This document shows positions 2-5,705 of a DNA stretch of 5,992 nucleotides, piece after piece. Source of the DNA: a bacterium (GTDB lineage: Bacteria > UBP15 > UBA6099 > DSWB01); the NCBI GenBank assembly GCA_020061125.1, contig JAGUYV010000372.1, positions 1-5,992 on the forward strand, in the 5' to 3' direction. The notes beneath the pieces were generated by a model. It did not search any database, was not told the DNA's origin, and saw only the letters and a program-made list of their open reading frames with translations. The first letter of the stretch is position 1. Each line of letters begins with the position of its first letter. The position numbers were made by a program, and so were the translations under genes.

Positions 2-151
2 CTCTGGAGCACGCTCCTGTGCTTCGACACCCGCCCGGACACCGCGGCCGCGGCACTGGACCTGTGCAACGCCATGGCGCGCGATCTGCCATGCCAGCGC
101 CTTTGTTTCGATAAAAACGCCGGACCCTGGAGGCTGCTCCATGACGAATGA
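2..151 (+). CDS. C-terminal end of a protein, possibly an HPr-kinase-like enzyme of the peptide cassette (5' truncated by window)
   Basis: An open frame enters from the left edge and stops at TGA 149-151, giving the last 49 residues of a protein (it begins LWSTLLCFDTRPDT and ends GPWRLLHDE). The Ala-rich helix, a Pro-Cys turn and then a short strand with a final Trp-Arg-Leu-Leu look like the end of the HPr kinase/phosphorylase-like proteins often encoded beside PqqD and radical SAM genes in peptide-maturation cassettes. The Walker A region and catalytic residues would lie outside the window, so the family call is inference from a weak C-terminal resemblance plus context. That the frame is coding is better supported: codon usage matches the neighbours, and its stop overlaps the start of the PqqD gene by 11 nt (141-151), a classic translational-coupling arrangement. 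It could instead be another cassette protein such as a nucleotidyltransferase. Confidence 0.6.
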   Translation, partial: LWSTLLCFDTRPDTAAAALDLCNAMARDLPCQRLCFDKNAGPWRLLHDE

Positions 152-426: not shown

Positions 427-1470
427 ATGGGCCGCCTCTACGGACAGCTCCAGGACGCTGCGCGCGCCAGCCTCACCCCGTTCGACACCATGTTCGAGGT
501 CACCCGGCGCTGCAACCTGCGCTGCGCGCATTGCTACAACCCGCCGGACCGCACGGCGGCGGAGATGGACACCGCACAGGCATGCGCTGCACTCGACAAG
601 ATCGCAGCCGCGGGCGGATTCATGCTCACCTTCACCGGCGGCGAGGCCATGTGCCGCCCGGATTTTCTGGACATCGCGGCTCACGCCCGCTCCCTGGGCT
701 TCGCCGTGACTCTCATCAGCAACGGAACCCTCATCACCGCAGAGGCCGCGCGCCGCATGGCCGCGCTCGGGTTCGCCGATGTGGGCGTAACCCTTTACGG
801 CGCGCGCCCCGGCCCGCACGAGGCCGTGACCCGCACCCCGGGATCCCACGAAAAATCCCTGCGCGGCATTCAAAACATCCTCGACGCGGGCCTGCACGCA
901 ACCCTGCGCTCGGTGATCATGAAACCCAACCGGGGCGAACACGAGGCGCTCGTCCAATTCGCCGCGGACCGAGGCATGCGCCAGCTCATAGATGTGCATG
1001 TCTCGCCCCGCCAGGATTCGGACCCGGCCCCCGTGGAACTTCAGTTGCCGGAAGAGGATCTCGAACCCCTGTACGCGGATCCGCGCCTGAACCTGTCTTT
1101 CGCGGGTCTGCCCCGCACCGGGCCGCCCCGGCCCGATTGCGATGCGGGCCGCAGCGTGTGCGCCGTCTGCCCGGACGGAACCGTGTACCCGTGCATCCAG
1201 TTGCCCGTGTCCCTGGGCAATATCGTTCAGCAATCCTTTGACGAGATCTGGAACGGCCCGTCGGCGCGGGATCTGCGCGAACTCATGGCCGGTCCGCTGC
1301 CCGAATGCAGCGCTTGCGCCCTGGGCGGCTATTGCCTTCGGTGCAGCGGCGTTGCGTTTCTTGAAGGGCGCGGCCTGCTCGGGCCCTCGCCAAGCGCGTG
1401 CCAGGGCGCGCGCGTCATTGCGCGGCTCCTGGGGCATGGACACGCCGCAACGGATGCTGTAAAATCATAA
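427..1470 (+). CDS. Radical SAM/SPASM peptide-maturase
   Basis: The 347-residue enzyme has the CX3CX2C motif (C29, C33, C36) that binds the [4Fe-4S] cluster cleaving S-adenosylmethionine, followed by GGE at 71-73, a SAM-contact motif. The C-terminus is a SPASM domain with cysteines at 238, 245, 248, 256, 294, 297, 303, 306 and 325, including CDAG, PDGTVYPC and a CX2CX5CX2C block. These should hold two auxiliary Fe-S clusters. Family members make carbon-sulfur or carbon-carbon crosslinks, or epimerise or decarboxylate, on ribosomal peptides; the exact chemistry cannot be read here. The likely substrate is the 55-residue peptide encoded 10 nt downstream, delivered by the PqqD protein upstream. 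I chose ATG 427, which lies 10 nt after the pqqD-like stop. The same frame is open back to an ATG at 340, but that adds 29 residues lying almost entirely inside the PqqD gene and unlike the family. The nearest SD-like AAAGGG (406-411) is rather distant, so translation may be coupled. Confidence 0.93.
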   Translation: MGRLYGQLQDAARASLTPFDTMFEVTRRCNLRCAHCYNPPDRTAAEMDTAQACAALDKIAAAGGFMLTFTGGEAMCRPDFLDIAAHARSLGFAVTLISNGTLITAEAARRMAALGFADVGVTLYGARPGPHEAVTRTPGSHEKSLRGIQNILDAGLHATLRSVIMKPNRGEHEALVQFAADRGMRQLIDVHVSPRQDSDPAPVELQLPEEDLEPLYADPRLNLSFAGLPRTGPPRPDCDAGRSVCAVCPDGTVYPCIQLPVSLGNIVQQSFDEIWNGPSARDLRELMAGPLPECSACALGGYCLRCSGVAFLEGRGLLGPSPSACQGARVIARLLGHGHAATDAVKS

Positions 1471-1480
1471 GGGACGGATT

Positions 1481-1648
1481 ATGAGCGAAGACAAAGACAA
1501 ACAAACCGGCCGCAAGCCGTACGCAAAACCCGCGGTGGAGTCCGAACGCATTTTCGAGACCACTGCGCTCGCATGCGGCAAATGCGGCAATCCGCAGCAG
1601 GTCACATTTGGCGGCGCCTGCGCGCGTGGGAAACCCGTCACATCCTGA
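1481..1648 (+). CDS. Putative RiPP precursor peptide, 55 aa, Cys-containing core
   Basis: A short frame begins at ATG 1481 and ends at TGA 1646-1648, encoding 55 residues. It has a strong ribosome site, AAGGGA at 1469-1474, overlapping the radical SAM stop and about 6 nt from the ATG. Residues 1-16 are polar and charged. The stretch KPYAKPAVESERIFETTAL (12-30) follows a pattern typical of leaders in PqqD/radical SAM cassettes: K-x-Y-x-x-P-x-V, acidic residues, then ETxAL. ACGKCG (31-36) follows directly, then a Gln/Thr/Gly stretch, a third cysteine at 47 and a short basic tail ending KPVTS. Position, length, leader/core layout and Cys placement all point to the substrate of the upstream enzyme, which would modify C32, C35 and/or C47 or nearby residues. 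Modification type, cleavage site and biological activity are unknown. No dedicated protease or transporter is visible in the window. Confidence 0.8.
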   Translation: MSEDKDKQTGRKPYAKPAVESERIFETTALACGKCGNPQQVTFGGACARGKPVTS

Positions 1649-2658: not shown

Positions 2659-4317
2659 TCAGTGGTATTTTTTCAGGTGCGCGGGCGTTTCTTTTTTCTT
2701 GAAAAGGCTCTTGGCCCACTCGTAAAGGTCCGGCTCTTTCTTCTTTTCCTTGATCTGGTGGTACTCTCCGGATTTCTTGTCGAAGGCGTACTTGATCTTC
2801 TGTCCCGGGCGCGTGGGGTCGTCGCGCTCGATCACATGCGGCGACTCGTTGATCTCGGAGATGTGCATTTTGCGGCCTTCGAGATTCATGTCCGGGTTGT
2901 TGACCAGATCGTCGCGGGTTTTGCCCAGTGTGGCGATGACCAGAGCGGGCTTGGTCATGGCCTCGAATGTACTCTGCACCATTTCGCCCGTGCCCTTGAT
3001 GGGCACATAATCCGCGACCTTGCCGAGAAGATGGCCCGCGATGTGCAGGGCCTTGATCTGATCCGCCTGCTGGCCCGTGATGTCGCCCTTTTCGCGCAGG
3101 GCCTTCAGCTTCTGGCTCTTGTCCTTGAGATCCTTGTACGCATTCTGCATGCCCTCGATGTTTTCCTTGATTTCCAGGGCGCTCTTCCCGGTGTCGTACA
3201 CCTTCTTGACGGTCTCCATGTCCTCAATGGCTTTCTCGAACTTGTTGACGGCGTAATCTTTTGACACGCCCATGGCGCCGTCAACCGCGGCCTCGCCCGC
3301 TTGGGTGTTGCCCAGTTTGCCGGACACATATTCCTTGACGCCGTCCACGAATCCGGTTTCCTTTTCGAGCGGCGCTTTCTTCTGCTTGATTTCCGCGGAC
3401 ACGCGCTCGATTTGCTTGTCTGCATTGTCCACGAACTGGCGCGCGGCCTGTTCGCGCACATAGGGGTCGTTCATCTCGCGGATGTCCTGCACGAGTTTTT
3501 CGTGGGCAAAGTCTTTGGGCGCGGACTCGAACGCGGCGTTGACCGCGGCCTTGGCCTCGGTGGCCTGGGCCGAGCGCTCCACGCGCTCCGCGGCCTTGGG
3601 ATCCTCGAGGGTTTTGTTCGCTCGCTTCAAATCCGACTCATCCAGTTCCGCGAATTTCTTGTCAATGTGCGCCTGCAGCTCCTTGTCCGTCATCTTGAGC
3701 AGCTTGTCCTCGGGGATGCCGCTGATCAGCGCCTCGAGGGCCGCCTCTTTCTGGGCCTGGGTAAGGTCTTTGAATTCCACGGCTTTTTTGAGATCGCCGC
3801 CCGAGCCGGACACGCGCCATCCCAGGTTTCCCCCGCTGTAAGACACCGATCCGGTACCTTTTTTCACATTGCCGGATACGCTTGCGCCCAGGGAAATGTT
3901 TTTGGAGTCCGAGCCGGAATAGGTCTGGCCGCCGTGAGTGGCGGTCCATGACCAGGACAAAGCCTCGCCCAGGGACATGGAACCGTCCACGGCGCCGGTT
4001 TTGGGGTCATAGGAGCCGGAGCAGCCCGAGCCTTTCATGGACACCCTGCCCGTGACCCGCGCGCCATCGTTTGTTCCGGAGAACGAACCGGAGCCGGAGA
4101 ACGAGCACGAGAACGATCCGCCCTCGGCATCCACGGTGAAAGAGATGGAGCCGGAGCCGGAGCCGTTCATGCCCTCGGTGGTTTGCGTGCCGCTCCAGGA
4201 CCCGCTGTAGGATCCTTTAGTCGCGCCCGCGGCCGTGTGCGGACCCTGTCCCGCAACCAGCGCCAGCGCCACAGCCAATGCAACAACAAAAACGCCCGTC
4301 CTGCGAATTGCGCTCAT
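2659..4317 (-). CDS. Exported protein with Gly/Ser-rich beta domain and long helical region, unknown function
   Basis: This 552-residue protein has an N-terminal Sec signal peptide: MSAIRR, a hydrophobic stretch at about 9-23, and probable cleavage after AGA at about 32. Residues about 33-175 are rich in Gly, Ser, Thr and aromatic residues with alternating strand-like patterns (GSYSGSWSG, SFSCSFSGSGSFSG, VSYSGGNLGW) and only two cysteines (71, 99), which could pair outside the cytoplasm. From about 184 to 425 the sequence is charged, Ala/Lys/Glu-rich and mostly helical, with coiled-coil-like stretches. A Gly-containing, less polar segment (about 426-466) follows, then a Lys-rich C-terminus with a short EWAKSLF helix. 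I do not recognise the family. The start at 4317 is chosen because the signal peptide begins there and a G-rich SD-like run (4324-4330) precedes it. The same frame is open to a TTG at 4392, but that TTG is part of the -35 element of the promoter. The lipoprotein gene follows 16 nt downstream. Confidence 0.82.
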   Translation of the reverse strand: MSAIRRTGVFVVALAVALALVAGQGPHTAAGATKGSYSGSWSGTQTTEGMNGSGSGSISFTVDAEGGSFSCSFSGSGSFSGTNDGARVTGRVSMKGSGCSGSYDPKTGAVDGSMSLGEALSWSWTATHGGQTYSGSDSKNISLGASVSGNVKKGTGSVSYSGGNLGWRVSGSGGDLKKAVEFKDLTQAQKEAALEALISGIPEDKLLKMTDKELQAHIDKKFAELDESDLKRANKTLEDPKAAERVERSAQATEAKAAVNAAFESAPKDFAHEKLVQDIREMNDPYVREQAARQFVDNADKQIERVSAEIKQKKAPLEKETGFVDGVKEYVSGKLGNTQAGEAAVDGAMGVSKDYAVNKFEKAIEDMETVKKVYDTGKSALEIKENIEGMQNAYKDLKDKSQKLKALREKGDITGQQADQIKALHIAGHLLGKVADYVPIKGTGEMVQSTFEAMTKPALVIATLGKTRDDLVNNPDMNLEGRKMHISEINESPHVIERDDPTRPGQKIKYAFDKKSGEYHQIKEKKKEPDLYEWAKSLFKKKETPAHLKKYH

Positions 4318-4463: not shown

Positions 4464-5123
4464 TCACTGTGCTGCCGCGCCGCGCTTGAGCAGGGCGCTC
4501 AATTCCAGGGCGCGGTTCATGTGCGCGGAGGCCGAGTGCAGGCCCATGGGGTCTTCCTTGATCCCGATGCGGATGCTTTTGTCGAACAGGCCCGAGCCTT
4601 GCGGGCTGGCCACTGCGGCCGCGCCCAGCGGGCTGATGCAGTGATGCACGCTTGTGGGGATCATCTCCAGGGTGAGGAATGTGGCGATGTGGCCCAGGTG
4701 CGTGGTCTCGAACCCGCCGTGGCGGCCCCAGGCCACGGCCGCGCTCACGCCCACCTTGTTTTTCATGGCCCCGCGCTTGAGGTTCCCGAACACGAACACG
4801 CGGCACCGGTCCAGAAAACTGGCCATGTGCCCGCTGGTGCGCATGAAGTACACGGGCGTGGCCAGCACGATGATGTCCGCGGCTTCCATTTTCTCAAAGA
4901 TCATCTGTGCGTCGTCGTCCAGGGCGCAGTATTTGCCCGGCTCCTGCTTGCGCACGCAGAAGTTGCAGTGCACGCACCCGCCCGTTTCAAGCTGCGACAG
5001 GTGCACGGCTTCGGCGCTCACACCGGGCTTGTTGCTCACCGCGTCCAGCATGATGTCCAGCAGCGCTTCCACATTGCCTTTCTTGACCGGGCTGCCCGAT
5101 ATGCCAAGCACTTTGTAATCCAT
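4464..5123 (-). CDS. Flavodoxin-fold NADPH-dependent FMN reductase / iron-sulfur flavoprotein family
   Basis: The 219-residue protein opens MDYKVLGISGSPVKKGNVEA. The GSP-x-K-x-GN loop (about residues 9-17) is the FMN-phosphate-binding motif of the NADPH-dependent FMN reductase/flavodoxin-like family. A cysteine cluster follows at C50, C53, C56 and C66 (CX2CX2CX9C), the compact motif that binds [4Fe-4S] in archaeal and anaerobic iron-sulfur flavoproteins, although the last spacing here is somewhat long. ADIIVLATPVYFMRTSGHMASFLDR (about 82-106) is the family's second flavin-contact and dimer segment. Cytoplasmic electron transfer or quinone/oxygen reduction is likely; the partner is unknown. 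AGGAGG at 5136-5131 is 7 nt from the ATG at 5123 but only 1 nt from a TTG two codons upstream, so 5123 is preferred. It lies 75 nt downstream of the MaoC-like gene on the same strand. I see no convincing separate promoter or terminator. Confidence 0.88.
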   Translation of the reverse strand: MDYKVLGISGSPVKKGNVEALLDIMLDAVSNKPGVSAEAVHLSQLETGGCVHCNFCVRKQEPGKYCALDDDAQMIFEKMEAADIIVLATPVYFMRTSGHMASFLDRCRVFVFGNLKRGAMKNKVGVSAAVAWGRHGGFETTHLGHIATFLTLEMIPTSVHHCISPLGAAAVASPQGSGLFDKSIRIGIKEDPMGLHSASAHMNRALELSALLKRGAAAQ

Positions 5124-5130
5124 GTCCAAT

Positions 5131-5198: not shown

Positions 5199-5660
5199 TC
5201 AACTGCCGTTCCCTCGCGCCACGCCGCGCGACAGATGTTCGAGCCGTTCCCCGTCCGGCGGGTAGCCCGTGAAATAGCCTTTGACAACCACGGTTCCCTG
5301 CTGGTTCGCGCACTCGAAATCCACGCGCACCTTGTACCGGTCCGAGACTTCGGCGACCACGGCCTCGCATGTGATGGTGTCGCCCGCGAACACCGGGGCG
5401 GTGAAGTCCATGTGGAAGCGCGCGGCGAGCACGGCCCACTGCCCGCCGATGTGCGTGGCCATGGACGCCACCAGGAACCCCGGCACGATGGGACGGGCGA
5501 ATTTCGTGAGCGCGCAGAACGCAGCGTCCGTGTGGTGCGGGTTCATGTCCCCGCTCAAGCCCACGAAGAGTTGCGAGTCGGTTTCCGTAAAGGTGCGCGT
5601 GAGCAGGGCGCGGTCTCCGGGTTTGAGTTTGCTGGTCACATTGCCGCGGGTCTGAATCAT
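5199..5660 (-). CDS. MaoC-like hydratase (hot-dog fold, (R)-enoyl-CoA hydratase type)
   Basis: The 153-residue protein (from ATG 5660) fits a single hot-dog-domain MaoC hydratase. The signature is LKPGDRALLTRTFTETD (residues 12-28), then the hydratase motif SGDMNPHHTD with D38 and H43 in the D-x4-H spacing of the PhaJ/MaoC catalytic dyad, and the later strand FHMDFTAPVFAGDTITCEA typical of the fold. Family members add water to 2-enoyl-CoA, giving (R)-3-hydroxyacyl-CoA, in fatty-acid, polyhydroxyalkanoate or other acyl-CoA metabolism. The actual substrate cannot be told. The usual His-Gly of the next motif is Pro-Gly here (IVPGFLVASM). An ATG at 5702 extends the frame by 14 residues, but a good -10 lies only 3 nt upstream of it, so that codon would fall at or before the transcript start. 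ATG 5660 has GGAG at 5674-5671. The reductase gene follows on the same strand. Confidence 0.85.
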   Translation of the reverse strand: MIQTRGNVTSKLKPGDRALLTRTFTETDSQLFVGLSGDMNPHHTDAAFCALTKFARPIVPGFLVASMATHIGGQWAVLAARFHMDFTAPVFAGDTITCEAVVAEVSDRYKVRVDFECANQQGTVVVKGYFTGYPPDGERLEHLSRGVARGNGS

Positions 5661-5670
5661 GGGCCGGGCG

Positions 5671-5674
5671 CTCC
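5671..5674 (-). promoter_or_regulatory. Probable ribosome site for the MaoC-like start at 5660
   Basis: GGAG on the minus strand lies 10 nt before ATG 5660-5658. The alternative ATG at 5702 has no purine-rich SD at proper spacing. Confidence 0.5.
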
Positions 5675-5705
5675 ATTTTCGCTTGGCGTTTTCGTGCTGC
5701 ATGCA

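Follow-up and report, generated by a model that had tools for sequence, protein, structure and literature searches.

Among the described systems closest to the locus reported here are those of the phosphorylated lasso peptides, such as paeninodin and pseudomycoidin (PadeK/ThcoK/SyanK, PsmK with PsmN, and BsfA/BsfK). The HprK-like kinases of lasso peptides phosphorylate a C-terminal serine (PMC9266682), and in doing so they require the precursor and are aided by the B1 protein (PMC9266682, PMC10368454). Here, we describe a related gene cassette in a bacterial contig of 5,992 nucleotides (JAGUYV010000372.1, our C329), the whole of which is the stretch analysed and is called the window below; its source genome is 78.8% complete. 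The cassette consists of an HprK-like kinase, a PqqD-type leader-binding protein, a radical S-adenosylmethionine (SAM)/SPASM enzyme and a 55-residue precursor peptide. It very likely encodes a ribosomally synthesised and post-translationally modified peptide (RiPP). With a probability of roughly 65%, we propose that this peptide combines lasso-type leader recognition and a C-terminal serine kinase with a radical SAM enzyme that would replace the lasso cyclase.

The cassette resembles the phosphorylated lasso peptide systems in its YxxPxL-type leader, discrete PqqD/B1 RiPP recognition element (RRE), HprK-like kinase and C-terminal serine, and in that a nucleotidyltransferase is often annotated. 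Unlike lasso loci, it generally has no cyclase or B2 protease, and has a radical SAM/SPASM enzyme instead; the two gene sets adjoin at a single relative locus, L094. Neither an asparagine-synthetase-like cyclase nor a B2 protease occurs among the open reading frames (ORFs) of the window, where the contig is cut upstream, and among the relative loci an asparagine-synthetase motif was found at L094 only. Judged by the genes present, the product does not belong to the lasso peptides. What most distinguishes the system is the kinase together with the C-terminal serine. Neither the kinase C-terminus (2-151), the PqqD gene (141-416) nor the conserved C-terminal serine figured in the initial annotation of this DNA, which dealt with the precursor frame. 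The features of the cassette are as follows.

2..151, plus strand: HprK-like kinase, C-terminal 49 residues, assigned with the family kinase hidden Markov model (HMM) and phmmer; the N-terminal part lies beyond the contig end.
141..416, plus strand: PqqD-family protein (RRE), PF05402 2.1e-16; its start overlaps the kinase stop.
427..1470, plus strand: radical SAM/SPASM enzyme of 347 residues, PF04055 and PF13186; the ATG at 427 is the most plausible start.
1469..1474, plus strand: Shine-Dalgarno-like AAGGGA, from the sequence.
1481..1648, plus strand: precursor peptide gene, 55 residues, assigned by homologues with a conserved leader beside radical SAM genes and by its leave-one-out score.
1520..1537, plus strand: YxxPxV leader-recognition motif, residues 14-19 (YAKPAV), with Tyr and Pro nearly invariant; lasso leaders carry the same motif.
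1571..1645, plus strand: presumed core, residues 31-55 (ACGKCG...KPVTS), with the boundary placed by lasso spacing.
1643..1645, plus strand: TCC codon of the C-terminal Ser55, the predicted phosphorylation site, given a Ser/Thr ending in 31 of 33 dissimilar precursors.

This gene order is also that of the complete relative loci. The precursor frame runs on the plus strand from an ATG through 55 codons to a TGA at 1646-1648 and translates as MSEDKDKQTGRKPYAKPAVESERIFETTALACGKCGNPQQVTFGGACARGKPVTS. Ten nucleotides separate its ATG from the stop codon of the upstream radical SAM gene. The initial annotation had described it as an overlooked RiPP precursor directly behind a radical SAM/SPASM gene, and both the frame and the enzyme's domains (PF04055 and PF13186) bear this out. 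The same holds for its smaller claims: the AAGGGA Shine-Dalgarno sequence lies at 1469-1474, and the three cysteines occupy residues 32, 35 and 47. The AAGGGA overlaps the TAA (1468-1470) that closes the radical SAM gene and ends 6 nucleotides before the ATG.

The frame almost certainly represents a genuine gene. It received 43.4 bits from a leader model made in leave-one-out fashion, with the window sequence excluded; the next-best ORF of the window received 1.0 bits. When the window was resampled 200 times with a first-order Markov model, the highest score among the resulting 17,748 ORFs was 9.8, which indicates that the frame is more than a product of chance. Close homologue pairs exhibit purifying selection, with ratios of nonsynonymous to synonymous differences (pN/pS) of 0.15, 0.05, 0.09 and 0.32, the first resting on a pair with three differences only.

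A search with the 55 residues found matching leaders in four genomes: G002, G003 and G005, which belong to the window's own order, and the distant G091. Profile searches added precursors from the family of G091 and from a sample of 386 genomes that spans many families, and a leader-only model extended the set to further bacterial groups. Many of the genomes compared are incomplete multi-contig assemblies, and contig ends truncate some of the loci. In total, 70 short frames match the leader, 63 of them with distinct tails, and a radical SAM gene of the family lies within 3 kb in 35 loci. Homologous short frames near related radical SAM genes, together with a conserved leader, were what the initial annotation had suggested looking for, and both exist. 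The frames, of 42-96 residues, sit at such loci directly after or before the radical SAM gene, often with PqqD and kinase genes.

A scan of genome contigs seeded with the radical SAM enzyme returned three relatives only, all weak, and a tblastn search for plasmid-borne relatives returned none. Three candidates were set aside: L007 (E 0.006) and L008 (E 0.07), weak matches that fall within long frames, and L005, which is antisense to another gene. L070, which matched the leader model in a wrong frame, was left out of the counts. Some genomes carry precursor paralogues, either in tandem or dispersed. For example, three are consecutive in L085 (127-682) and two in L079 (5982-6427), and genome G048 has eight; L171-L175 are also among the loci with such paralogues.

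Across the family, leaders are conserved and cores vary. Four residues are invariant or nearly so among 23 diverse precursors: Tyr and Pro in the Y-x-x-P motif, the first Cys, which is Cys32 in the window, and a second Cys. Next in conservation comes a Ser at the C-terminus. The leader of the window precursor fits the lasso form YxxPx[L/V/I], and its YxxPxV motif is the same as that of lasso leaders (PMC10368454). Apart from the first Cys, a second Cys and the last residue, the cores vary across homologues, and from one group to another both their length and their sequence change greatly. Most cores in 33 dissimilar precursors have two or three Cys, and one type (L158/L160) has a single Cys. 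The conserved leader and variable cores support the reading of the frame as a RiPP precursor, as does the PqqD-type RRE encoded upstream (PF05402, 60.4 bits against a cut-off of 23.4), which is expected for a RiPP. The peptide was also said to match none that was recognised, and indeed it fits no curated family: Pfam gave no match for four precursors of the family, and NCBIfam none for ten, even at E 10.

The last residue of the precursor is Ser in 26 and Thr in five of the 33 dissimilar precursors, against 7.3% Ser and 3.4% Thr (10.7% together) at the ends of 410 long ORFs from the same stretches. A binomial test gives p of about 4e-28, a value that takes the 33 precursors as independent and is made optimistic by their shared ancestry, although their tails differ in sequence and length. 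Two of the precursor models, A1 and A2, included the C-terminus; the later model A4 did not, so the last residue of matches derived from A4 is an independent observation. Near-identical precursors of one genus end in Ser in L091/L176 and in Thr in L164/L167. Such an exchange fits a phosphoacceptor role for this residue.

A kinase that might act on this residue is encoded at the upstream edge of the window. The family kinase HMM recognises the 49-residue tail at 2-151 (domain E 8.7e-9, one target). For this tail, phmmer places the kinases of L034 (2.9e-6) and L081 (2.4e-5) among its matches in a set of 34 kinases. The family kinases keep the His, GxxxxGK[S/T] and D-D/E residues that are reported to be important in lasso-peptide kinases (PMC10368454, PMC9266682). 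A model of the G005 kinase (pLDDT, the predicted local distance difference test, of 90.8) has a PEPCK-type fold with a Z score of 15. HprK itself belongs to the PEPCK-like fold. The PDB fold matches listed contain PEPCK entries and no HprK, which is not evidence against HprK, and a PDB sequence search with the kinase profile recovered P-loop stretches only.

The radical SAM/SPASM enzyme has both expected domains (PF04055 9.9e-22; PF13186, the SPASM domain, 8.9e-14) and a confident structural model (pLDDT 89.6). Its CxxxCxxC motif is formed by C29, C33 and C36, and its SPASM cysteines are C238, C256, C294, C297, C303, C306 and C325, in line with Cys conservation in 20 homologues. Profile comparison with solved structures ranks SkfB (1.6e-39) and PqqE (5.4e-36) highest, followed by the cytosylglucuronate decarboxylase BlsE, SuiB and 5wgg. 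A fold search likewise places SkfB, a sactipeptide thioether enzyme (5why, with CteB among the nearest) and PqqE at the top. Since SkfB and PqqE are its nearest relatives by profile and fold, modification of a peptide is favoured, perhaps by a thioether.

Across relatives, the same genes recur together. Of the 35 precursor loci whose radical SAM gene is no more than 3 kb away, 29 have PqqD and 28 the kinase, whose gene directly adjoins that of PqqD; an S24/S26-like gene occurs at 22 and a PF14907 nucleotidyltransferase at 12. Because the S24-like genes narrowly miss the Pfam cut-off, this label is tentative. A signal-peptidase-like gene of this kind lies no more than about 2 kb from the precursor in L032-L035, L040, L095, L096, L098, L152, L163 and others.

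At L094, an operon on the minus strand (1535-8263) comprises, in order, kinase, PqqD, radical SAM enzyme, precursor, ABC transporter, B2-like protease (Transglut_core3), a second PqqD and a lasso-type cyclase (asparagine synthetase); its YxxP precursor ends in Asp. The kinase-like ORF of this asparagine-synthetase-linked locus matches the same kinase HMM (5e-25). This arrangement suggests that the lasso and radical SAM toolkits can share a locus.

Exopolysaccharide assembly genes adjoin the cassette at four loci (L030 2444-6777, L031 8142-13498, L095 7657-11790 and L151 1-9991), of which L030 and L031 belong to the window's own order. They encode polysaccharide export, a Wzz-like chain-length protein and an ExeA-like ATPase, and in L095 also a Wzy-like membrane protein. 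In L031, one frame of 774 residues (8142-10466) fuses a PF14907 nucleotidyltransferase domain with an SLBB-domain polysaccharide export protein.

The gene, its conservation, the cassette and the Ser/Thr ending are observed; from them we infer a series of enzymatic steps. The PqqD protein would bind the Y-x-x-P-x-V leader and present the peptide to the enzymes. The radical SAM/SPASM enzyme would then modify the core around Cys32, most likely through a thioether or some other carbon crosslink. That crosslinks form is a prediction, and a thioether at Cys32 in particular is a possibility that we put slightly below even. The HprK-like kinase would, in the manner of lasso-peptide kinases, phosphorylate Ser55 at the C-terminus, a step that we consider probable. 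In relatives, the phosphoserine may serve as the substrate that the PF14907 nucleotidyltransferase elaborates, and the S24/S26-like peptidase is a candidate for leader removal, an assignment that is slightly more tentative than the thioether.

Several observations weigh against this scheme. The type of reaction that the radical SAM enzyme performs cannot be told from its sequence. The kinase of the window is cut by the contig end, leaving only its C-terminus, and the region of the His, P-loop and Asp motifs falls outside the window. Two precursors, L088 with a final Gly and L094 with a final Asp, lie next to kinases that seem intact, and BsfK, an HprK-like lasso kinase, targets Ser3 and not the C-terminus. 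The S24-like gene was not seen at loci of the window's own order. Finally, 28 precursor loci have no radical SAM gene within 3 kb; many of these are extra paralogues (in G048, G534 and G166), and their enzymes may therefore lie elsewhere in the genome.

Other explanations account for parts of the evidence. A plain sactipeptide- or ranthipeptide-like RiPP, in which the radical SAM enzyme installs Cys thioethers, the kinase stands outside maturation (acting, for example, on another protein) and the C-terminal Ser/Thr has some other purpose such as exporter recognition, would agree with the closeness of the enzyme to SkfB by profile and fold, with the conserved first Cys, and with peptides that end in Ser at some loci without a nearby kinase. 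Like the sactipeptide maturases SkfB, CteB and their relatives, which include the nearest solved structures, the enzyme is of SPASM type and lies beside a short Cys-containing precursor. However, the cassette differs from sactipeptide systems in having a kinase and a nucleotidyltransferase as partners and in its C-terminal Ser rule; the kinase is present in 28 of the 35 radical SAM-linked loci, directly adjoining PqqD, and the last position swaps Ser and Thr but seldom takes other residues. The sactipeptide maturase models also stay below their cut-offs (StsB 104 against 625, AlbA 60 against 850 and SkfB 59 against 300 bits). We regard this explanation as unlikely. That the short frame is a chance or non-coding ORF after the radical SAM gene, as its size and lack of a curated family match might suggest, is ruled out for practical purposes by the leave-one-out score, the homologues in many genomes and the purifying selection.

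Two further explanations seem to us very improbable, and about equally so. One is a cofactor or redox-carrier peptide like PqqA or mycofactocin, from which a small molecule is excised. The discrete PqqD, SPASM radical SAM enzyme and short precursor do recall the PqqA/PqqD/PqqE set of pyrroloquinoline quinone (PQQ) biosynthesis, and cores are under strong purifying selection within genera. Yet the window has no other pqq genes, and two features would not be expected of a fixed cofactor: the cores are very different in length and sequence from group to group, and several genomes (G048, G534, G166) hold many paralogues. The window enzyme matches the PqqE (94.4 against 381 bits) and mycofactocin radical SAM (118 against 265) models below cut-off, as does the PqqD protein its own model (22 against 46). 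The other is a cassette that is named already, though unstudied, such as SynChlorMet (ScmC, ScmD, ScmE and ScmF) or GeoRSP in NCBIfam, which share the HprK-like (ScmC), PqqD-like and radical SAM/SPASM gene types. Every match to these is far below the curated cut-off: ScmC 36 against 125 bits (for the L033 kinase), ScmD 33.9 against 100, ScmE 89 against 400, ScmF 79.9 against 400, and for GeoRSP TIGR04302 37.1 against 100 and TIGR04303 122.4 against 400. The ten precursors without an NCBIfam match argue likewise. TIGR04247, considered as a SynChlorMet precursor model, is a NosD-like copper family and irrelevant.

In the literature searched, we found no description of a radical SAM RiPP with an HPr-type kinase, and the word SynChlorMet did not occur; HPr kinase, radical SAM and RiPP were named together only in one paper, which mentions the kinase in lasso clusters. 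As this literature included few subscription papers, an earlier description is possible.

If the proposed combination of lasso-type leader recognition, C-terminal kinase and radical SAM enzyme is correct, a single cassette, found in many little-studied bacterial groups, would unite two RiPP toolkits that are usually treated separately. The last residue of an overlooked gene would then be a shared, testable substrate for kinases, PqqD proteins and nucleotidyltransferases that now lack annotation. A YxxP leader, Cys and a C-terminal Ser/Thr also provide a sequence rule for finding such missed genes. We further speculate, as a decidedly long shot, that these cassettes represent a widespread undescribed class of RiPP, in which a radical SAM-modified peptide bears a C-terminal phosphoserine or phosphothreonine extended by the PF14907 nucleotidyltransferase with a nucleotide or sugar. 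On this speculative reading, cassettes in exopolysaccharide loci (L030, L031, L095 and L151) may couple the peptide to polysaccharide machinery.

The rest of the window lies downstream of the precursor, with its genes on the minus strand. A 552-residue ORF (2659-4317), Gly/Ser-rich in its N-terminal part and charged further on, had no Pfam match over the cut-off. A small lipoprotein-like ORF (2160-2642), an FMN-reductase family protein (4464-5129) and a MaoC-like dehydratase (5199-5702) are ordinary genes and have no evident link to the cassette. In the non-coding DNA that follows the precursor, a direct repeat of 98 nucleotides occurs at 1747-1844 and 2066-2163 (88% identity, spacing 319 nucleotides). 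Both copies are preceded by TTTATCCTGCCTATCCTGC-like words, and the repeat is possibly a dispersed genomic one.
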